IMG/VR virus record: IMGVR_UViG_3300044613_001247
Span: 1-20,352 of that record
From: a virus
Length of the DNA stretch: 20,352 nt
Direction: 5' to 3' (one strand)
The notes beneath the pieces are model-generated. The model did not search any database. It was not told the origin of the DNA and saw only the letters and a program-made list of their open reading frames with translations. Of this stretch, positions 3,948 to 16,517 are shown piece after piece. Every line of letters starts with the position of its first letter. Within the stretch, counting starts at the first letter, position 1. The translations under genes and the position numbers were made by a program.

Positions 3948-6545
3948 CTAATCCTCTTGTCCAGCCGCGACCGCTACGCCCGCACGGATGCGGTTAGCGC
4001 CACGGGGACGGTTAAGCGCACGGGTCAGCCGGGCGTTGAAGTCTTCGGAACCGGCCATCAGCAGATCGGCCAGCGTTTCGGCGTTGCGGCGAGCAAGGAA
4101 ATCATCGACGCCTTGTCCGATCCTCGCGGGAATACCAAGCGGGTTTGTTGCCGATTTTACCGCGCCTGACGCAAGGTTTCCGCCGCGTAGGTTTTGGATT
4201 GCCTCTGTGTTAAACGCGGTTTCCGAACCGGCGCGTTGACGCTGGCCAGTCGCTTGCAAAACCTCGACGAGTTGCGCCATCGGATCAGAACCACGAGCGG
4301 GCGCGGCATTGGCGCTAATGGGTGGGAATGCCATGTTAGGGTCGGGACGGTTTACAACGTCAAGCGCCCCCATAACTGTCCGGCGCTGTTCAGGGTTTCC
4401 GAACGCGCGAGCGGCAAAATTTGCGCCGCCAAACTGGTTGGAACCTGTAGCCAATTCTTGCTGCGCTTCCATCGCTTGACGCGCCAGTTGCTGCCGAACA
4501 AGCGGGCCACCAACAGAAGGGTCAATCTCGCTCATGAGTTCTAGCGCGCGGGCGGTTTCAGCGGCTTGGCCCTCAAACGGCGCGTCAGGGAACAAGCGCC
4601 CCGTCATTGCCGCAAGGTTTGGCGCGGCTTCCGACGTGTCAGCAAGCGCACCAATCGGACCGGCTTTAAGCGGGTCAATAAACGCTTCATTGATGCCGCG
4701 CACCGTGTCGCGGGCCATGCCGTAATCTGGCGAGGCTTCACGGGCCAAAGCATCAGCCAACCGTTGCGCTTCCGTCCGTTGAGCGGCGCGCGTCATGCTT
4801 CCGCCAACCCGCATAGAGTTTGGCGCGGCTTCATCGGCCATCGTGCCGAGTTGCTTCACAACCTCATTGATGACGTTAAGATCATTGTTCGGGCTAGGCG
4901 CTGCGAAGGGGTCGAAAGTGGAGCGAACCGCGTCAGGGTTGCGAACAACAGACTGGCCCGGCGCGCGAATAATGTCCGCCTCCGCTCCCGCGCGGAACGC
5001 CGCACCACCTTTCGGCGTAGTGGTATCGAGAACCGAACCCTGACGAAGAAACGTCGGGTACACCGCTCCTTCACTTCCGGCATATTCCGACGCGATCTGC
5101 GGACGGCGGGTCACATACAAACCTTCGCCAAGCGCCCCGCGCTCGGTCATGTCCGTTCGGAACTCGCCCTCAAATGGCTGGCGAGAGCCGTGGTAATAGG
5201 GCCGGTCTGTGTTGAAGCCTTGCTGTTGTGCTCGCAGCATCCGCACGTCTTGTTCCATTGGCAGTTCACGGCTGAGAAGCGGCGCAAGCTCCTCGTCACC
5301 GCGAACCGCACGCAGTGCGGCGGCAAACGACGGGTTTTCCGTCAGTTGCTGGAACTGTTCAGGCGGGAGAGATTGACCGGGCAGACGTTCATAGAACGGG
5401 CGAGCGTCCTCATTTGCGCGTTGACGCAAGCGCGTCAGCACACCGCCAGCCGCCTCCCGCACTTGAGGCGCAAGAGTAGATGGCTCAACGCTTGGCGCAA
5501 TCTGGTTTAGCCGCGCCTCAATAGCGCCCTGCACCTGAGCGGGGCGATTGGCGAACATCGGGGCCATGCGCGTCGTCTGGCCCTCGACCACACGCTGCAA
5601 GCGGCCAAGGCCTGACCCGCCACCCGTGACTTGCTGAATGGCCTCTGCGTTGGTCAGGTCAACGCCCATCGCCTGCGCGTCACGCCTAAGCGCCGTTGCC
5701 AGTTGCAGGTTCTGCGGGGTTACGCCTTCCGCTGCATTGCGGAGGGAAATGTCAGCACCGCCGCGAACTGCGCCCACGCCACCAACGCCAAACCCGCCAA
5801 GCAGACCGCCACCAAGACGCGCCAAACCCTCTGCCGTCGTATCGCGCTCACCGCCGCTCATGCCGCGCGCAATCTGGCCAGCGGATTCGCTTGCAAGCGC
5901 CGGAACCGCAACCGACGCCACCCGCGTCAACGCTCCGCCCGGTGCCAAACCGCCCGGCAGAAACTCGCCAAGCGTCCGTGAGTATTCTCCCGCGACCGTC
6001 TGAGGCTGGTAATAATCCCGGCCAAGCGCGTCGCGGATGCTTTGGTTGAGGTCTTCGCCGCTTGGCAAAAACCGCGTCATACTCGTGGGGTTTTGCAGGC
6101 TTTCGGGGATTATATCCCGAAGCGAGCCGGGCAAGCCCGCGATACCCGTCAAACCTTCAACCACACCAGTCGGAAAAGATTTTGCGACATCCTCCACGCC
6201 AGATTGCGGACGCTGCATCAAGCCGGGCGACAGCGGCTCGTCGCCGGTTCTAGCCACACCTTCTCGCGCGTCTTCTGGCAGCGCATAAACCGTGCCATCC
6301 GCGCCCCTGACCCACGTTCCGCGCGTCAGACTTGCCACTAGCGCCTGACCCTCTGGCGTAGAGCGGTCAATAGTTGTCAGATCAATCGGGTTGTTTTCGG
6401 TCATGCCCGGTTCGGCGTAATACGCCGCGTCTTCCGGACCGCCGAAATTCTCCTGCATTACGCGCACGATTTCTTGATCAGGCGTCCCTGCCGGAAACTT
6501 GATGACCGTCCCATCCGGGGCGATGATTTCAATGTCCGGTTCCAT
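3948..6545 (-). CDS. Large internal/ejection-type protein with inserted ADP-ribosyltransferase-like domain (865 aa)
   Basis: 865 aa. Residues 1-35 contain IIAPDGTVIKFPAGTPDQEI, an N-terminal motif seen in phage internal proteins. Residues about 195-265 are Gly-rich and hydrophobic (VASVAVPALASES, GGGLLGGFGVGGVGAV), possibly membrane-active. The rest is mostly long helices. Embedded at about 449-547 is a compact, aromatic- and Gly-rich segment: YYHGSRQPF (450-458), GEGLYVTRRPQIASEYA (473-489), AVYPTFL (494-500) and VVRNPDAVRSTFDPF (533-547). This order (HG-S/T, G-x-Y-x-T, then N-P-D-x-[I/V]-R-S-x-F-D-P) is the pattern of ADP-ribosyltransferases of the polyvalent/MuF-associated type. Position suggests injection with DNA, so the domain could modify a host target early in infection. 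The virion role is inferred; catalytic residues are tentative (H452, Y477). Confidence 0.8.
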   Translation of the reverse strand: MEPDIEIIAPDGTVIKFPAGTPDQEIVRVMQENFGGPEDAAYYAEPGMTENNPIDLTTIDRSTPEGQALVASLTRGTWVRGADGTVYALPEDAREGVARTGDEPLSPGLMQRPQSGVEDVAKSFPTGVVEGLTGIAGLPGSLRDIIPESLQNPTSMTRFLPSGEDLNQSIRDALGRDYYQPQTVAGEYSRTLGEFLPGGLAPGGALTRVASVAVPALASESAGQIARGMSGGERDTTAEGLARLGGGLLGGFGVGGVGAVRGGADISLRNAAEGVTPQNLQLATALRRDAQAMGVDLTNAEAIQQVTGGGSGLGRLQRVVEGQTTRMAPMFANRPAQVQGAIEARLNQIAPSVEPSTLAPQVREAAGGVLTRLRQRANEDARPFYERLPGQSLPPEQFQQLTENPSFAAALRAVRGDEELAPLLSRELPMEQDVRMLRAQQQGFNTDRPYYHGSRQPFEGEFRTDMTERGALGEGLYVTRRPQIASEYAGSEGAVYPTFLRQGSVLDTTTPKGGAAFRAGAEADIIRAPGQSVVRNPDAVRSTFDPFAAPSPNNDLNVINEVVKQLGTMADEAAPNSMRVGGSMTRAAQRTEAQRLADALAREASPDYGMARDTVRGINEAFIDPLKAGPIGALADTSEAAPNLAAMTGRLFPDAPFEGQAAETARALELMSEIDPSVGGPLVRQQLARQAMEAQQELATGSNQFGGANFAARAFGNPEQRRTVMGALDVVNRPDPNMAFPPISANAAPARGSDPMAQLVEVLQATGQRQRAGSETAFNTEAIQNLRGGNLASGAVKSATNPLGIPARIGQGVDDFLARRNAETLADLLMAGSEDFNARLTRALNRPRGANRIRAGVAVAAGQED
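4905..5201 (-). other. ADP-ribosyltransferase-like domain within the 865-aa protein
   Basis: This span codes for residues 449-547 of the large internal protein. It carries the H-Y type ART signature: Y451-H452-G453-S454, then G475-L-Y477-x-T479, then a Tyr-rich strand (Y488, Y496), and finally N536-P-D-x-V-R-S-x-F-D-P546. The helical chain on either side (LRAQQQGFN before, LNVINEVVKQLGTMADEA after) reads as one interrupted helical repeat, so the domain appears inserted. No catalytic glutamate could be placed with confidence. Confidence 0.65.
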
Positions 6546-8083: not shown

Positions 8084-8971
8084 TTACCGTCCAAACACGC
8101 CAAGGCCAGCCGAGCCAAGGCCAAACAAGCCGCTCATAAGGCCCTGCTGTTGCTGAAGCCGCGTTTGATAGTTCTGGTTCTGCTGGCCAAGGCTCATAGC
8201 GTTAGCGCCGAGAACGTCTGTCTGGCCTACGCCGGTCGGGCTGTATTGAATGCCCTGCGGCATACCGACTTGACCCGTGCCTAACAGCGCTTGAAGTTGC
8301 TGAAGGGGCTGATTCTGGACGTATGCCCGCTCTTGCAGGCCCTGCGTCCGCGCCTGATTACCGAATGTCCCGCCCGCAATGGCTTGCTGAATAGCGCGAG
8401 ATTGCTCCGCACCACCGGCTTGAATGGCTTGGTTGGCTGCCGCTCCGTATGCGTCCGCTCTATCTCTAGCAAAATCAGATCGAAGATTTCGCGTTGCCTC
8501 GCTATTCGCTCCAAGGCCCTGCGCGGCAAGACGAGCATCTTGCGACCTTTCAAGCCGCTGAAACTGGGGGTCAAGGCGGCGGGTCTGGCTGGCATAAAAC
8601 GAATCCTCAAACCGTTGGCGGTCAAAGTCAGGCGCGTTGTAGCCTTGCAGGTCGGGCAGGCCTTCGGTGCTCAAGCCTTGGCCAAGCGCGGTGTTCACGC
8701 GGCCAATCTGTTGGCCAGCCGTATCAAGGGCGCTACCGTAAACGCCCGTTGAGCGTTCGTAGTTTTGCTGCTCCAGCGGGCTGAGTGCCGTTTCTTGACG
8801 ATAACCGCCCGGCGCGGACGGATCGGCCACATAACGCACGGTCCCTTGCGGGCCGGACGTATTGACCATGTTTAGCCGTTGCTGCTCACGCGCGGTCGCG
8901 GTATTTGCCGCGCTTTGCGCGTTGGCAAGCTGGACGGGATCAGGTGCTGCTGGAGGCCGGGGCTTGCTCAC
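8084..8971 (-). CDS. Internal virion / DNA-ejection-type protein (295 aa)
   Basis: 295 aa with GTG start at 8971, eight bases after AAGGA. Composition is rich in Gln, Ala, Arg, Gly and Asn. Landmarks: GPQGTVRYVADPSAPGGYRQ (40s-50s), FDRQRFEDSFYASQTRRLDP in the middle and LAAQGLGANSEATRNLRSDF. The C-terminus is Gln-rich and ends in a Gly/Leu/Phe hydrophobic stretch (GLMSGLFGLGSAGLGVFGR), which could contact membrane. This pattern is common in conserved phage proteins lying between the tail hub and the long internal proteins, where P22 and T7 place their ejection proteins. The exact function is inferred from position and composition. The next gene starts after three bases. Confidence 0.75.
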   Translation of the reverse strand: MSKPRPPAAPDPVQLANAQSAANTATAREQQRLNMVNTSGPQGTVRYVADPSAPGGYRQETALSPLEQQNYERSTGVYGSALDTAGQQIGRVNTALGQGLSTEGLPDLQGYNAPDFDRQRFEDSFYASQTRRLDPQFQRLERSQDARLAAQGLGANSEATRNLRSDFARDRADAYGAAANQAIQAGGAEQSRAIQQAIAGGTFGNQARTQGLQERAYVQNQPLQQLQALLGTGQVGMPQGIQYSPTGVGQTDVLGANAMSLGQQNQNYQTRLQQQQGLMSGLFGLGSAGLGVFGR

Positions 8972-9407
8972 TTACACGGTCCTTGTTGAAACGGTGGACA
9001 CGCCACTCACTTTCGAGAAGACCGGATATGATGCAATCATCGTCACCATAACCACGCCGGATAGTCCCCTCATGTTTGAAACCAAACTTTGAGAGAAACT
9101 GGCGAGCGGGACGCAAACGCTTTGGCGTCAGGCTGGTGATTCTCGCCGCCCCAAGCTGCTGGAACGGATAACGCAAGATACCCGTCACAAGGCGAGGCGT
9201 CAACCAATCGGCGCGCGTAGAGGCAAAACTAACCTCAATGTTACGATATTGAGGCTGATATTGATTGAACACGACGCCGCCAACGAGATGGTCGTGCTTA
9301 TCGACTACCCCGATAGCCTCGCATGGCCCCCAGTCCAGTCCGTGCCCAATCTGGTCTGCTACCCATTGAGCGACCAAGGGCGAAAACGGGCCGGAGACTA
9401 GCCTCAA
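8940..9407 (-). CDS. GNAT-family N-acetyltransferase
   Basis: 155 aa with TTG start at 9407, overlapping the previous stop (TTGA). The GNAT fold is readable: strands 2-3 AIGVVDKHDHLVGGVVFNQY (31-50), strand 4 NIEVSFAST (56-64), helix 3 up to FQQLGAARI (82-90), and helix 4 RPARQFLSKFGFKHEGTIRR (99-118), the usual RimJ/RimL-like ending. The acetyl-CoA pyrophosphate loop is not a good Q/R-x-x-G-x-G/A match, so activity is uncertain. Such enzymes are recurrent in phage tail modules, but their substrate is unknown; a virion or host protein are both possible. The last 32 bases overlap the next gene, whose ribosome site lies in this gene. Confidence 0.85.
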   Translation of the reverse strand: MRLVSGPFSPLVAQWVADQIGHGLDWGPCEAIGVVDKHDHLVGGVVFNQYQPQYRNIEVSFASTRADWLTPRLVTGILRYPFQQLGAARITSLTPKRLRPARQFLSKFGFKHEGTIRRGYGDDDCIISGLLESEWRVHRFNKDRVSEQAPASSST

Positions 9408-12314: not shown

Positions 12315-12538
12315 TTTGACACCTCTAGCAGAGCTTGCGCCCGCACCGCAGTAGCGCAAGCGTTGACCATTTCTTGAGCCTCAAAGACTTGTTTTTGTGC
12401 ATCCTCCAGCCGGGATATCGCGTATTGGTATGCTCTCGCCGCTGCTTGCCCTCGGCATTCGCTTGGATCGCCAATCGCGGCTGTAATCTTCGCCCTAAGC
12501 GCCGCGTCGGCAGGGCTTTCGTTTAGCCACTCAATCAT
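12311..12538 (-). CDS. Small helical protein of unknown function (75 aa)
   Basis: 75 aa, almost entirely helix-forming (AARAYQYAISRLEDAQKQVF), with two cysteines and no membrane span. Its start overlaps the previous stop as ATGA and its stop overlaps the next start as ATGA, so it is translated as one unit with both neighbours. I recognise no family. The short, charged, coiled-coil-like composition suggests a small structural or chaperone-like phage protein, but this is a guess. Confidence 0.75.
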   Translation of the reverse strand: MIEWLNESPADAALRAKITAAIGDPSECRGQAAARAYQYAISRLEDAQKQVFEAQEMVNACATAVRAQALLEVSK

Positions 12539-13056
12539 GCGGCTTCCTTCTCTGCTTTGACCTCAAGCGCCAGCGCCAATTTTTCTTCAAGCTCGCGAAT
12601 GCGCTGCGTCATTTCGGCTAGGGGCTTTTCGGCTTCGGTCTGTTCAATGAACCGTTGAGCCTTGGCGCGGAGGGCTTGACCACCCATCGGGACACACTTG
12701 GCGAGTTGGCTGTCAGACAGGCCCGCAAGCGCCTCCACGGTGCGAATATGGACGCTGTTAAGCTCGATGACCTGACTGCGGCCCACGCCCGCCCACTCCT
12801 CTAACGGAGTACCGCTTTCAGGGGCTTCCATGTTGGTCTTAAACGCGGCGTACTTCGTAGGCCAGCGTTCGCGGTGTTCGTCCTTCACGGCAACATCAAC
12901 GATGTTCTTGTTATCGCCCGGCACGATCAGTTCGACGTACTCAACGTCGTTCCACACTTCGCGACCCTCCTTCTCCGACAGGAAGTTGTTGCGAACCGGC
13001 TTAATGTGGAAGCGCGGGATGATCCGGTCCCGTCCGTCAGGCGCTACATAATCCAT
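12535..13056 (-). CDS. Conserved phage protein of unknown function (173 aa)
   Basis: 173 aa. The N-terminal half (FHIKPVRNNFLSEKEGREVW, then VELIVPGDNKNIVDVAVKDE) is of a type I associate with a conserved phage protein near head genes; no function is known to me. The middle (VHIRTVEALAGLSDSQLAKC) looks like a helix-hairpin-helix-like repeat, and residues after about 135 form a charged heptad-like helix (IRELEEKLALALEVKAEKE), likely a coiled coil. The ribosome site CGGAGGA lies in the last codons of the methyltransferase gene. It overlaps the next gene as ATGA. A virion or assembly role is plausible from position only. Confidence 0.82.
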   Translation of the reverse strand: MDYVAPDGRDRIIPRFHIKPVRNNFLSEKEGREVWNDVEYVELIVPGDNKNIVDVAVKDEHRERWPTKYAAFKTNMEAPESGTPLEEWAGVGRSQVIELNSVHIRTVEALAGLSDSQLAKCVPMGGQALRAKAQRFIEQTEAEKPLAEMTQRIRELEEKLALALEVKAEKEAA

Positions 13057-13635
13057 CTATGTCCTCCGATACACAGTGTCGTTTCCAATACGCATCACGC
13101 GAGAATAACCGGGCAGATCGGCTTTCGGGCCTAGTCCCTTTTCTTCAAGGACTATGATAGGCGAAAACTTCTCGATTGTCGCTAGTGCGCCTTTAATGGC
13201 GTCCGCCTCCGCGCCCTCTATGTCCAACCAGATCAAATCGCACTGGTCGAGGCCAAGGCCGTCAATGGTCTGGACGGGGATCGCGTCGCCCGGCAGCGTC
13301 TTGTGAGAACCGCAGTTGTCGGTGTCGATGCGAAGGATGCCGCACATTTCTACTCTCGATCCGAGAGCGGCGTAATAGATCGTCACATTCTCAGCCGTGA
13401 CGTTCGCTACCAGACAATCAAGATTGTCGGTGTCTGGCTCCAAGGTGATGACCCGATCAAACACCTTGGCCAGCGCGAGAGGATAGACGCCGACGTTTCC
13501 GCCCGCTTGGACGCAGACACGCTTTTCCTTCACCAGCGGCAGGACAGCGGGCATGGCAGCGGCGCACTCATCTAGCACTACGGCGCGGCAGCGAACGTCA
13601 AAATCAGGCCACCAAAGGCCGGCAATCTGTTTCAT
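13057..13635 (-). CDS. FkbM-family SAM-dependent methyltransferase
   Basis: 192 aa from ATG at 13635, which overlaps the micropeptide stop (ATGA); a start 48 bases upstream would run through the micropeptide and is not preferred. The Rossmann methyltransferase motifs are clear: motif I VCVQAGGNVGVYPLALAK (residues 40-57, SAM binding), the acidic end of the next strand in VITLEPD (62-68), DLIWLDIEGAEADAIKGAL (133-151), characteristic of the FkbM family, and IIVLEEK (160-166). FkbM enzymes methylate hydroxyl groups, often on sugars, which fits the coupled glycosyltransferase upstream. The substrate could be a glycan put on the virion or on the host surface. Glutamine-alanine replaces the more usual Asp/Val-Gly in motif I; this is tolerable, but activity is unproven. 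Confidence 0.88.
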   Translation of the reverse strand: MKQIAGLWWPDFDVRCRAVVLDECAAAMPAVLPLVKEKRVCVQAGGNVGVYPLALAKVFDRVITLEPDTDNLDCLVANVTAENVTIYYAALGSRVEMCGILRIDTDNCGSHKTLPGDAIPVQTIDGLGLDQCDLIWLDIEGAEADAIKGALATIEKFSPIIVLEEKGLGPKADLPGYSRVMRIGNDTVYRRT

Positions 13636-13712
13636 CGACGCGTGTTCACAAAGATGCCGACGACTAGCAGCCACAGCAGCCAAACGGCAAGAAGGCCAAG
13701 AACCAGCATCAT
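13632..13712 (-). CDS. 26-aa single-span membrane micropeptide
   Basis: A 26-codon frame that starts with two ATGs at 13712 and 13709. After the initiator it is a hydrophobic run rich in Leu, Val and Trp (LVLGLLAVWLLWLLVVGIFV), followed by NTRR and a stop. This fits one membrane span with a basic, probably cytoplasmic, C-terminus. It has a near-ideal ribosome site (GGGGAGG, eight bases upstream), overlaps the glycosyltransferase stop as ATGA and overlaps the methyltransferase start as ATGA. That coupling on both sides is strong support for a real gene despite its size. The role is unknown: it could tether the two flanking enzymes at the membrane or act on its own. Confidence 0.7.
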   Translation of the reverse strand: MMLVLGLLAVWLLWLLVVGIFVNTRR

Positions 13713-15142
13713 GCGAGCAACCTCCCCATGTCGGGAATTAGACCCTTCCCGTGGGCAATGACCTTAACGCCACGGTCGCGCAAATACAAAAATGACTGCT
13801 GGAATTCCATGCTCTGCCGGATCATCCATCGGGCGCAAGTGTATGTCTTGTCGCCTAGCACAACATCCATCGTTGGCTCGCCGTCGTTGAGGCTTTGCGA
13901 ATAGGCATGGTGAGCGCCCTCTGCATACGAACTATCGAAGCCGTAGAGGTGGATTTTCTTATAGCCCGACAGCCACGCCAGATTGATGGCGCGAAGGCCA
14001 ACCGTGCCTCCACCGGGCACGAGAACGCAGGGCTTTTGGTTAGGCCCCTCGTCAAACCACGGCTTGATAATGTCCATGAGTTCCTCACCCGAACCCATCG
14101 CATTGTGCCACAGAACAACATCATGCCCCGAAAGCGCATCAAACACGCACGGATGAACCTGTGAAGCGAGGAAGTAGCGCACGGACATTGGCGCATCCTC
14201 GACCATGTGTAGATTTTCTTCCCGCGCATCCAACATCACATGAGCATCCGGCGTGACAGCCCGCTCCGTAAGGTATCGCAGCGCATTGTTGACGCTGATA
14301 ATCTTGGCGCCCCGCCTGCGATGGTCCTTAATGGCCTGCACACTGTCCGCAAGCGAGGGACCGCCACCGACGATAACGCAAGCCTTGTCTTGCTCCCCAA
14401 AGCCTGAGAACCACGGCAAATCCCGCTGCACGTTGGCCCGCACATTGGCATAGGCAAAATCGTGCGTGACGTTCATGCCCTTTAGCTCTGGCATGGCGGT
14501 ATAGCCGCCGACACGCCAGACGCCCGGAACCCACCCGTCCGTCACCTCATGCGGTTTGGGCTGGCCGTGGAATATAACCGCCTTGGCCGTCTCAGGGGGC
14601 CACGACACCGCGTCACGGTAAGACACGAACATTTCGGGTGGAAAGGTCTTCCACGAACTGACTTGGCTGATCCATTCCTGATCACCCCCGTTAATCTGGC
14701 CAGCGGGGAGCAGTCCCGTCAGGCTTTCCGTGGGGCGCGTCATCACGTCCGGCGTGAACCGTTCCCAAATGTCCGCGTGTTCGCCATGACGCCAGCGCAT
14801 CACAGACGAATTGTAGCAAGGCCAGTGCCAATCCTTGATAATACCAAGCGGCAAGCCCTCAAGCCTGCCAGTCACGCATACGTCTAGGTCCATATACAGA
14901 ACCTCGTCGCCAAGTTCCCACGGCATACCGTTAGCGGCGAAAAGCATCACTTTTTGCCACCAACCGGGCAAGCGCGGATTGTGCGGAATGCCTGTAATGC
15001 CGTCCGGAAGTCCATCAATGTCGTCAGTCAGGCACCAATGGTGCTGCGGTTCGTCCAGATGGCGGGCAATGCCATCGTGAAGGCGGGTGACGTATTCAAT
15101 CGGGTACTTGTCCCCGACGCGGACGCTGACAACGTTAATCAT
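13709..15142 (-). CDS. Two-domain glycosyltransferase / DUF115 (MAF-like) protein
   Basis: 477 aa. Residues 1 to about 215 look like a GT-A-fold glycosyltransferase: a nucleotide-sugar-type DxD motif (D85-L-D87, in VLYMDLDVCV), NGGDQEW at 151-157 and FHGQPKPHE at 191-199. Residues about 250-470 look like the DUF115/MAF_flag10 fold: CVIVGGGPSL at 255-264, ISVNNALRYL at 282-291 and GTVGLRAINLAWLSGYKKIH at 379-398, followed by LYGFDSSY. MAF proteins of this superfamily are implicated in sugar transfer to flagellins in other bacteria. A fusion suggests glycan transfer to a protein or surface structure, either virion or host. The substrate is unknown. It begins behind a terminator hairpin with GGAGGT close to the ATG and overlaps the next micropeptide gene as ATGA. 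Confidence 0.85.
   Translation of the reverse strand: MINVVSVRVGDKYPIEYVTRLHDGIARHLDEPQHHWCLTDDIDGLPDGITGIPHNPRLPGWWQKVMLFAANGMPWELGDEVLYMDLDVCVTGRLEGLPLGIIKDWHWPCYNSSVMRWRHGEHADIWERFTPDVMTRPTESLTGLLPAGQINGGDQEWISQVSSWKTFPPEMFVSYRDAVSWPPETAKAVIFHGQPKPHEVTDGWVPGVWRVGGYTAMPELKGMNVTHDFAYANVRANVQRDLPWFSGFGEQDKACVIVGGGPSLADSVQAIKDHRRRGAKIISVNNALRYLTERAVTPDAHVMLDAREENLHMVEDAPMSVRYFLASQVHPCVFDALSGHDVVLWHNAMGSGEELMDIIKPWFDEGPNQKPCVLVPGGGTVGLRAINLAWLSGYKKIHLYGFDSSYAEGAHHAYSQSLNDGEPTMDVVLGDKTYTCARWMIRQSMEFQQSFLYLRDRGVKVIAHGKGLIPDMGRLLA
13721..13727 (-). promoter_or_regulatory. Ribosome binding site of the 26-aa micropeptide gene
   Basis: GGGGAGG on the minus strand, eight bases before the ATG at 13712 and lying inside the last codons of the glycosyltransferase gene. 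The ideal sequence and spacing decide that the 26-codon frame is a real translation unit. Confidence 0.7.
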
Positions 15143-15156
15143 GCTACCTCCATAGC

Positions 15157-15187
15157 AAAATGGCCCCGAGGACGAACCCCGAGGCCA
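15157..15187 (-). terminator. Probable intrinsic terminator behind the capsid genes
   Basis: On the minus strand, 15187-15161 can fold into an eleven-pair GC-rich stem (arms TGGCCTCGGGG and CCTCGGGGCCA, with two G-U pairs) closed by a five-base TTCGT loop. TTTT follows at 15160-15157. The hairpin is between the 95-aa head gene and the glycosyltransferase gene, in the largest non-coding stretch of the window (15143-15233). The T-run is short, so termination is probably partial, lowering expression of downstream genes relative to capsid. The downstream gene's GGAGGT ribosome site begins only a few bases later, so the hairpin could also affect translation or protect an mRNA end. Confidence 0.7.
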
Positions 15188-15233
15188 TTAGGCTACCACC
15201 TAACCCCAGTGGAGGCTAGGGCAGGCGGAAGGC

Positions 15234-15521
15234 TTAGAGAGCGGTGCGCTTGGCCCAAAAATACTGGCCAGCGGTAACGCCTCCGGTCGTATTAGTTGTC
15301 CAGCCAGCCGAACCGGCATCCGAGGAAGCCGAACCGGCAGTGCCGATCAGGATGGTCTGGGTGGAGGACAGAGCCTCCGAAGCCCGCGCGTAAATGTGGT
15401 TACGGCCATCATTGCCGTAAACACGAAGGTTGACGGCGAATGCCGGGGTCGAGGACTTAGAGTCCAGATCAATCCCCACAGTCGGAATGGTCGAAAAGAC
15501 CGTTGCAGCAGTCGATGCCAT
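15234..15521 (-). CDS. Small head protein, probable capsid decoration protein (95 aa)
   Basis: 95 aa, rich in Ala, Ser, Thr and Gly, with no cysteine. The sequence looks like a small beta-structured domain: a strand-rich centre (FAVNLRVYGNDGRNHIYARA) and a C-terminal part ending GGVTAGQYFWAKRTAL. It immediately follows the major capsid gene with its own strong ribosome site and is followed by a terminator-like hairpin, so it belongs to the high-output capsid unit. Decoration or cement proteins are commonly small and sit at this place, so that is the likely role. It could also be a minor head protein of unknown use; no family motif is decisive. Confidence 0.8.
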   Translation of the reverse strand: MASTAATVFSTIPTVGIDLDSKSSTPAFAVNLRVYGNDGRNHIYARASEALSSTQTILIGTAGSASSDAGSAGWTTNTTGGVTAGQYFWAKRTAL

Positions 15522-15545: not shown

Positions 15546-16517
15546 TTAGGATTGGAACAAGACGCCTTGGAGGAAGGCGTTCGACAAGGTCATATTGCCA
15601 GCCCAAACGATAGGCTTGACCATTGCGTCCTGATTGATCGAACGGACTTCTTCCAGCGGCACCATGTTGCGGTCCTTGTGAGGACGCCAGTGGATGTAAC
15701 CGGTGTTGAGGAAGTACATATGGTTATCCGGGCAGGCCCCGCCGTAACCACCGTCGAACACAACATCAGTTCCCTTGTACTTCAGCGAGACATAGCCCGC
15801 GTCGGCTTCGTTAGGGTTGGTGACGCGCTGAATGTCCTGAAGCGACGACTCGTAGAAACCAAAATAGTTGTCATCACACAGGATCAGGTCAGGCTTGTCC
15901 GTACCGCGCGAGCATTGACGATACAGGGTATTCATAAAGCGGGTGATGTTGGCAGCCGAGGCAGCCGAACCACCGTCCGAGGTCGCTTGAAACTTCTGGT
16001 TACGCCAGAAATTCCACGTTCCTCGGTTGATGCCGCCGACAGTGCCGCTCGTGGGGTCGTCAGCTACAAGAAGCTGAAGGCCACCAATCTGCTTGCCGCC
16101 CGAGGCCGTACCGTTTGAGTACAGGTCTTCGGCCACACCGTTCTGCATGGTCTTTTCCGCGTTCTTGATACGCGAGGCCAGCAGGTCGATGATTGCATCA
16201 ACGCCGGAGTTTTGCAGTTGCTCCAGACCGCTCATGGTCACGTTGACGGCGATTTGCTTCCAGTCGAACTCTGCAGCCGTGAACACGTCGCTAGGCGAGA
16301 TGTTCAGGACTTCATAGCCCGAGTAACGCTGATAGGTAACGTTCTCAGCGTATTCCAGCTCTTGCAGAATGGTGCGACCGCCGGAAACCGGCTTGATCGT
16401 GCCACGACGCTGCATACGCGACAGAATCGCGTTGTTGTTGGTGACGTTATCCGCCAGCTTGCCCGTGCGGTTACGCAGGGTAGTGGTCGCAATTTCCGAA
16501 AGATTCGGGGAGGTCAT
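15546..16517 (-). CDS. Major capsid protein
   Basis: 323 aa. This is the main shell subunit, present in hundreds of copies and expected to have the HK97 fold. The N-terminal part (TLRNRTGKLADNVTNNNAIL, then VSGGRTILQELEYAEN) and the middle (GKQIGGLQLLVADDPTSGTV) match a capsid family I recognise from phages and prophages of Alphaproteobacteria. The C-terminal part has HMYFLNTGYIHWRPHKDRNM and ends with NAFLQGVLFQS. It has no separate N-terminal delta domain or protease gene nearby, which fits assembly on a separate scaffold. It is preceded by scaffold and followed after 24 bases by a probable head decoration gene; both it and that gene have strong ribosome sites, so both are probably made in quantity. 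Confidence 0.93.
   Translation of the reverse strand: MTSPNLSEIATTTLRNRTGKLADNVTNNNAILSRMQRRGTIKPVSGGRTILQELEYAENVTYQRYSGYEVLNISPSDVFTAAEFDWKQIAVNVTMSGLEQLQNSGVDAIIDLLASRIKNAEKTMQNGVAEDLYSNGTASGGKQIGGLQLLVADDPTSGTVGGINRGTWNFWRNQKFQATSDGGSAASAANITRFMNTLYRQCSRGTDKPDLILCDDNYFGFYESSLQDIQRVTNPNEADAGYVSLKYKGTDVVFDGGYGGACPDNHMYFLNTGYIHWRPHKDRNMVPLEEVRSINQDAMVKPIVWAGNMTLSNAFLQGVLFQS

Follow-up and report, generated by a model that had tools for sequence, protein, structure and literature searches.

A conserved Maf-like glycosyltransferase and methyltransferase cassette in the head module of Mx8-like phages, with virion proteins as candidate acceptors

Three genes behind the capsid genes of the IMG/VR virus record IMGVR_UViG_3300044613_001247 are so tightly joined that they raise two questions: do they encode one pathway, and if so, what does that pathway modify? 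The window analyzed here comprises 20,352 bases of this record, and the cassette lies in it on the minus strand (Table 1). Three open reading frames (ORFs) in series encode a glycosyltransferase (GT) of 477 amino acids (aa), a 26-aa membrane micropeptide, and a 192-aa FkbM-family methyltransferase. An initial annotation had described these products as a GT-A/DUF115 fusion, a membrane peptide and a methyltransferase joined by ATGA overlaps, and the ORFs, Pfam and PHROGs agree with that description, the overlaps falling at 13709-13712 (GT and micropeptide) and 13632-13635 (micropeptide and FkbM). The GT starts at ATG behind the Shine-Dalgarno sequence GGAGG and the micropeptide is preceded by GGGGAGG; none is visible at the FkbM start, in keeping with coupled translation. 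FkbM is counted here from its ATG; a 208-aa ORF listed from a TTG is a longer in-frame reading. The cassette is genuine and conserved, a glycan module of several enzymes in Mx8-like phages. We lean, at a little better than even confidence, toward a cytosolic Maf-type pathway of protein O-glycosylation and capping, with a virion protein as its most likely acceptor.

Two domains make up the GT. Pfam places MptE-like/DUF115 (PF01973) at residues 233-408 (E 1.5e-24; 87.2 bits against a gathering cut-off of 34.6), and PHROGs assigns residues 7-210 to the glycosyltransferase phrog_1962 (E 2.1e-18) and residues 258-413 to the alpha-2,3-sialyltransferase phrog_4603 (E 9.4e-6). An AlphaFold2 model, built from an alignment of 32 window and locus proteins, has a mean predicted local distance difference test (pLDDT) score of 92.6 and a predicted template modeling (pTM) score of 0.75. 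In VIA-align comparisons with this model, residues 1-214 superimpose on LgtC (1g9r; Z 16.8, root-mean-square deviation (rmsd) 3.1, 196 aligned) and on glycogenin (3t7n; Z 16.3, rmsd 3.0, 189 aligned). Profile alignment pairs DLD, NGGDQ and HGxPKP of the GT with DAD, NGGDQ and FLGQTKP of glycogenin, and D85, D87 and H192 are unchanged in all 11 copies of alignment A1. We take the DxD and His-motif residues to be the metal and uridine diphosphate (UDP) ligands of GT8 enzymes. As modeled, the N-terminal half has a GT-A fold of the GT8 type with the DxD and distal His motifs present, and catalysis is predicted. It shares with LgtC and glycogenin the fold over about 189-196 residues and the DxD, NGGDQ and HxG..KP-type motifs, and differs from them in its short length (214 residues) and its fusion to a Maf domain.

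The C-terminal half (residues 226-475) resembles the flagellin O-glycosyltransferase Maf (5mu5; Z 21.9, rmsd 3.0, 224 aligned) more closely than MptE (8sd5; Z 16.0, rmsd 3.2, 192 aligned). Maf is also its best PDB match by sequence profile (E 4e-10 versus 4.6e-5 for MptE), and the Maf GxGPS and G.D motifs line up with it. In the model, then, the fold of this half is nearer to Maf than to MptE, and on the same numbers we rejected an MptE pterin kinase as the leading idea. A broader version of that idea would give DUF115 the activity of MptE, or would make the bases of phage DNA the substrate of the GTs. The Pfam label and the MptE superposition speak for it, and phages do glycosylate DNA (passages of PMC12619734), whereas Maf outscores MptE by both fold and sequence. 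A scan of 20 further proteins of one relative (G007) returned no sugar-nucleotide, flippase, membrane GT or thymidylate-synthase family, and the last of these counts against DNA hypermodification. We consider this explanation very unlikely.

According to passages of PMC11339370, Maf enzymes O-link nonulosonic acids to Ser/Thr of flagellin, and the Maf domain is similar to Cst-II. What the window protein shares with Maf/PseD is the central domain and its motifs. The alignment spans only 224 of 632 Maf residues, and in place of the three-domain Maf architecture the window GT has no flanking Maf domains, a fused GT8 domain, a viral source and a position in a head operon. NCBIfam, its full-length PseD model included, gave zero matches for the window GT. 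With the flanking domains absent, the protein may work like Maf, but we do not class it with the flagellin Mafs. These differences bear on the proposal that a viral Maf alters host flagellin or pilin glycosylation to hinder other phages. A flagellin-modifying Maf is indeed the closest solved structure, and NCBIfam FlagModPseD is the sole match for two related loci (L079 and L112), far under its cut-off. The missing flanks, the site in the head operon and the company that the Maf domain keeps with capsid and decoration genes across lineages all argue the other way, and we judge flagellin or pilin to be a quite improbable target.

The 192-aa protein is an FkbM-family methyltransferase by both curated cut-offs, with methyltransferase activity predicted. 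It scores 40.5 bits (E 4e-10) against the Pfam cut-off of 22.7 for PF05050 and 57.1 bits against the NCBIfam cut-off of 37.7 for TIGR01444, and it matches PDB entry 2py6 (E 1.5e-8). Its phage copies depart from the family in coming after a Maf domain or sharing one chain with it. No membrane segment was found in the GT or in FkbM, where the maximum hydropathy over 19 residues is 1.2 and 1.4, respectively.

In an effort to see how constant this association is, we collected relatives by likeness to the cassette or to the capsid, so that they are not a random sample: 51 loci by the two-domain GT, the best 80 of 593 by the capsid, 79 FkbM loci from the best 80 of 101, and the best 80 of 223 by a broader GT alignment. 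Domain profiles were run on 134 distinct contigs, a set that excluded the window itself, repeat loci of the same contig, loci numbered beyond L195 and the loci of annotated phages. GT8 fused to DUF115 and followed by FkbM occurs in 69 of the 134, and the recurrence of this order together with the sequences is more than chance would give. DUF115 fused to FkbM and followed by GT8 occurs in 2, the GT8-DUF115 fusion without FkbM in 6 (three of them, L027, L043 and L049, where the contig stops at or near the GT), and partial or split copies in 2 (L050, L171). Seven contigs hold FkbM alone. Each begins no more than 150 bases from FkbM, and with these set aside a DUF115/Maf domain accompanies FkbM in 73 of the 73 contigs that have sequence upstream of it. 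The slot behind the capsid gene is unchanged even for FkbM relatives of 39-47% identity. The initial annotation had proposed co-occurrence in phage genomes as a check, which these counts pass; homologous phages with the genes scattered were looked for as well, and none appeared among the contigs fetched.

Fusions provide the strongest evidence for a shared pathway. In L193 and L195, DUF115 and FkbM form a single ORF (465 and 481 aa), both domains above the Pfam cut-offs, and GT8 is the next gene, overlapping that ORF by a few bases. A 657-aa ORF in L267 unites GT8, DUF115 and Methyltransf_24 behind an Mx8-like capsid gene (45%) and a decoration-type gene. In L112, DUF115 is fused to Methyltransf_25, and L116 aligns with L112 along its whole length. 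The top structural matches in BFVD, known here by their labels, include a methyltransferase protein of 714 aa and viral proteins of 685-700 aa called 'MptE-like'. That one Maf domain, in an unchanged slot, has been joined with three methyltransferase families points to one pathway for sugar transfer and methylation. Together with the conserved catalytic motifs and the GT8 fusion, this makes a single pathway for GT8, Maf and methyltransferase very likely, close to established from sequence, and upholds what the tight gene linkage had first suggested.

The opposing explanation is cargo without a shared pathway, in which two moron genes met by chance in a permissive insertion site. HNH endonuclease genes and small genes do enter between the GT and FkbM, and the corresponding slot of phage BUCT555 is filled by other cargo. 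Against this stand the order held down to 39-47% FkbM identity and the fact that these functions have fused repeatedly, three methyltransferase families being involved. We had already disfavored this explanation, and it now carries very little weight.

Searches of annotated phages were less productive. Among 50,697 phage records, no place covered 80% of the two-domain GT. A 269-aa stand-alone DUF115 protein had no match in the phage records, and L112 matched one record, by its methyltransferase half alone. Genome contigs were scanned for bacterial relatives or a host, and none was confirmed. In the open-access literature, which holds few of the subscription papers, we found no description of the cassette, and the main text of an Mx8-related paper (PMC10386132) contains no word beginning with 'glycosyl'.

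What might the pathway modify? The capsid gene encodes a major head protein (phrog_9953, E 1.7e-117), 51% identical to the Mx8 capsid protein, and the portal belongs to phrog_12082; Mx8-type capsid and portal in this order mark an Mx8-like podoviral head module. Upstream of the cassette run the portal, two small genes, a gene in the scaffold position, the major capsid protein gene and a 95-aa gene; downstream of FkbM come a phrog_20268 gene and then tail genes. Wherever a cassette contig has flanks, the slot has head genes on one side and tail genes on the other. The placement behind capsid and decoration genes, which had drawn attention to the locus, thus persists across relatives, and the GT genes sit inside a virion gene module, as they do in phage virion glycosylation systems. 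The 95-aa protein is related to the Mx8 gp49 type (hhalign probability 98, E 1.8e-13), which the Mx8 record labels a virion structural protein. Its model has a pLDDT of 80.5 and matches phage decoration and head-fiber proteins, though weakly (Z no higher than 6.9, rmsd 3.5, 67 aligned). Most copies contain a conserved Ser/Thr-rich stretch, GSASSDxGSAG, a possible acceptor site. L193 and L195, however, carry a longer decoration type. In two close capsid relatives free of the cassette (69-70%), the slot holds one protein of 296-302 aa with a weak decoration-profile match (L077:2691-3581 and L078:8987-9895).

From the genes, predicted folds, motifs, co-occurrence, fusions and position, which are observed directly, we infer catalysis, sugar identity, step order and acceptor as follows. 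The Maf-like DUF115 half would move a first sugar, probably of nonulosonic type from a host cytidine monophosphate (CMP)-sugar, onto Ser/Thr of a protein. The GT8 half on the same chain would then attach a hexose from a UDP-sugar, and FkbM would O-methylate the glycan. A virion surface protein would most likely receive the glycan, in first place the decoration protein and after it the capsid protein, with modification preceding assembly or accompanying it. By analogy, the phage cassette may act as an abridged Maf pathway to which an extender and a methyl cap have been added.

An alternative acceptor is a glycan of the host surface. Here the enzymes would decorate host lipopolysaccharide, lipooligosaccharide (LOS) or capsule and so block superinfection, anchored at the membrane by the micropeptide. 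LgtC is a LOS galactosyltransferase, phrog_4603 is named alpha-2,3-sialyltransferase, and many copies of the cassette have a coupled one-helix peptide. Passages of PMC11339370 relate the Maf fold to the sialyltransferase Cst-II as well. The membrane peptide is, however, often missing, and the cassette belongs to the head module, not to an early or lysogenic region. The flippase and membrane GT typical of serotype-converting gtr clusters were unseen in the 20 further proteins of G007, which are part of the genes of a record that may be a fragment. An integrase was found in 0 of 16 contigs (G001-G016), records that may likewise be fragments, so prophage conversion is not an obvious use. The contig of L183, a relative with the cassette, does bear an integrase. 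We regard a host-surface target as unlikely, and a virion protein, to which the gene position points, as most likely.

Several observations weigh against the proposed pathway or its virion acceptor. No cassette domain is present in 37 of the 134 contigs, and a further 11 hold DUF115 without GT8 or FkbM, a class that includes the L112-type fusions, FkbM being the sole methyltransferase profiled. The two-domain GT stands without FkbM in 6 intact slots (L042, L044 and L070; L241, L247 and L254). The cassette is absent from Mx8, ppBjS10J-1 and BUCT555, and with many Mx8-like phages lacking it, it is not essential for this capsid type. The slot also admits HNH genes and unrelated cargo, so a tolerance of this site for insertions may account in part for the location of the cassette. 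Nor is the fold assigned to the decoration protein secure: Foldseek gave no match below E 0.001, and the best VIA match has a Z of 6.9, under the advised 8. Among 113 slots, 73 hold DUF115 and a decoration gene, 0 DUF115 alone, 34 a decoration gene alone and 6 neither. The Fisher p for this link is 0.0015 (0.04 for capsids of 80% or less), uncorrected for relatedness, and since 107 of the 113 slots hold a decoration gene the association is weak. Finally, with no sugar-nucleotide family in the 20 proteins of G007, donor sugars would have to come from the host.

Both phage virion glycosylation and Maf flagellin glycosylation are already known, and the cassette is a variant of these. Mycobacterium phages carry glycans on capsid and tail tube (passages of PMC12619734, citing Freeman 2023); the likeness lies in the proposed outcome, capsid-type glycans made by phage-encoded GTs. 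Passages of PMC4875605 report 67 strains whose flagellin glycosylation islands include FkbM genes, and mention GT41 enzymes that bear methyltransferase domains. As there described, the enterobacterial islands resemble the cassette in that GT and FkbM genes adjoin the gene of the modified surface protein and GTs carry methyltransferase domains; they differ in being bacterial and larger, with sugar biosynthesis genes and GT41/GT2 enzymes. In Citrobacter phage phiNP (L197), a sialyltransferase-named gene overlaps a GT8-like gene near the terminase, and in phage P1 (L198) pmgO and pmgQ lie within one stretch. Homologues of both GT halves, named or matched, thus also occur apart as separate genes close together in phages of laboratory bacteria, with no FkbM neighbor listed and a function given as 'putative morphogenetic'. 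The unrelated Tetraselmis viridis virus S20 (L125) has GT-D, GT2, FkbM, GT8-like and weakly MptE-like genes between its capsid and tail genes; its MptE-like match (18.3) is below the Pfam cut-off of 34.6, which lessens its value as a parallel. S20 is a tailed phage genome with a large GT/FkbM cluster and a green alga as its recorded host.

A fuller scenario is more tentative, and we hold it just short of probable: phages would have taken a catalytic domain of flagellin glycosylation and fused it to a GT8 extender and to one or another of at least three methyltransferase families. Encoded beside the capsid genes, this cytosolic machine would furnish the decoration or capsid protein with a methyl-capped glycan, its output adjusted by a leader attenuator hairpin. 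Phage GTs near head genes are mostly unexplained, and the fusions yield a testable pathway with named candidate acceptors. If the scenario holds, Maf chemistry of flagella moves into virus shells, and uncharacterized phage gene pairs such as P1 pmgO/pmgQ may do likewise.

The exact three-part layout of GT, micropeptide and FkbM, which the initial annotation had treated as a unit, did not hold up; the core is GT8, Maf-like DUF115 and methyltransferase. The micropeptide has a mean hydropathy of 2.85 over 19 residues and occurs as 32 distinct alleles. In the 28 alleles that begin with an in-register start codon, the ratio of nonsynonymous to synonymous polymorphism (pN/pS) is 0.40 in its frame versus 0.87 and 1.57 in the other two, and the micropeptide is a real gene under purifying selection. 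Its pattern is present in 38 and absent in 32 of the 70 contigs with separate GT and FkbM genes. With so many intact cassettes lacking it, we rejected the micropeptide as a required member, and the three-part layout is just one variant. L071 argues against a required micropeptide too, placing an unlike 27-aa membrane peptide after FkbM instead. Unlike one-helix peptides of divergent relatives are coupled to the GT (L044, L070) or to FkbM (L071). The micropeptide is perhaps a membrane tether, or perhaps an unrelated small membrane gene using the coupled slot.

Spacing between the GT and FkbM is not fixed, as the gap often holds a 59-aa gene, HNH genes or both. About 40 of 70 cassettes (L001-L055) have the 59-aa soluble protein (MSSQYHERNDNERRKAWATLKWYPERLTDADRALL...), either beside the micropeptide or in its place; the pattern used to find it overlooked L019 and L023, where the gene is present, and the 'GT+M Fkb' layout accounts for 8 of 70 contigs. 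HNH endonuclease-like genes, which we take to be such from a sequence motif, have inserted again and again beside the GT in homing-endonuclease fashion (L013, L017, L018, L021, L039 and others).

A 96-base leader separates the decoration gene from the GT start (15141-15236, minus strand). It is conserved and three-way-junction-like, with the GT Shine-Dalgarno sequence inside the closing stem of the predicted structure (-53.6 kcal/mol, z -4.48). Compensatory changes, scored over 10 leaders, occur at 5 of the 34 predicted pairs, and the 13-bp stem before UUUU contains all five. A terminator scan found 3 against 3.5 expected from shuffles, no excess, so the case for the hairpin rests on folding and covariation. 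Rfam gave no match, and no tRNA was found. From these sequence features, the hairpin is reasonably read as an attenuator that would lower enzyme output relative to the capsid protein.

Table 1 Positions of the cassette and adjoining features in the window
Feature	Position	Strand	Evidence
Two-domain GT (GT8-type and Maf/DUF115-type), 477 aa	13709..15142	-	ORF, Pfam, PHROGs, model, fold match
GT8-fold N-terminal domain, residues 1-214; DxD 85-87, NGGDQ 151-155, HGxPKP 192-197	14501..15142	-	VIA-align LgtC/glycogenin; glycogenin motif alignment
Maf/MptE-like (DUF115) C-terminal domain, residues 226-475	13718..14467	-	VIA-align Maf 5mu5; Pfam PF01973
Membrane micropeptide, 26 aa, single helix, optional member	13632..13712	-	ORF, alleles, pN/pS, hydropathy
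FkbM-family S-adenosylmethionine methyltransferase, 192 aa	13057..13635	-	PF05050; 2py6 E 1.5e-8; TIGR01444
Conserved stem-loop, 13 bp then UUUU, probable attenuator	15159..15189	-	Folding z -4.48; 5 compensatory pairs
Decoration-type gene, 95 aa, Mx8 gp49-type homologue, candidate acceptor	15234..15521	-	hhalign; weak fold matches
Major capsid protein, Mx8-like, candidate acceptor	15546..16517	-	phrog_9953; 51% to Mx8
Conserved gene closing the slot, phrog_20268, function not assigned	12535..13056	-	PHROGs; recurs in relatives

Two other minus-strand genes of the window deserve mention. At 3948-6545, an 865-aa protein occupying the place of an internal virion protein contains a weak ADP-ribosyltransferase stretch (ART-PolyVal, PF18760, residues 450-503, E 3e-5, below the cut-off). 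At 8940-9407 lies an acetyltransferase-type gene of the tail module (phrog_4470), conserved across relatives, which may encode a further protein-modifying enzyme.

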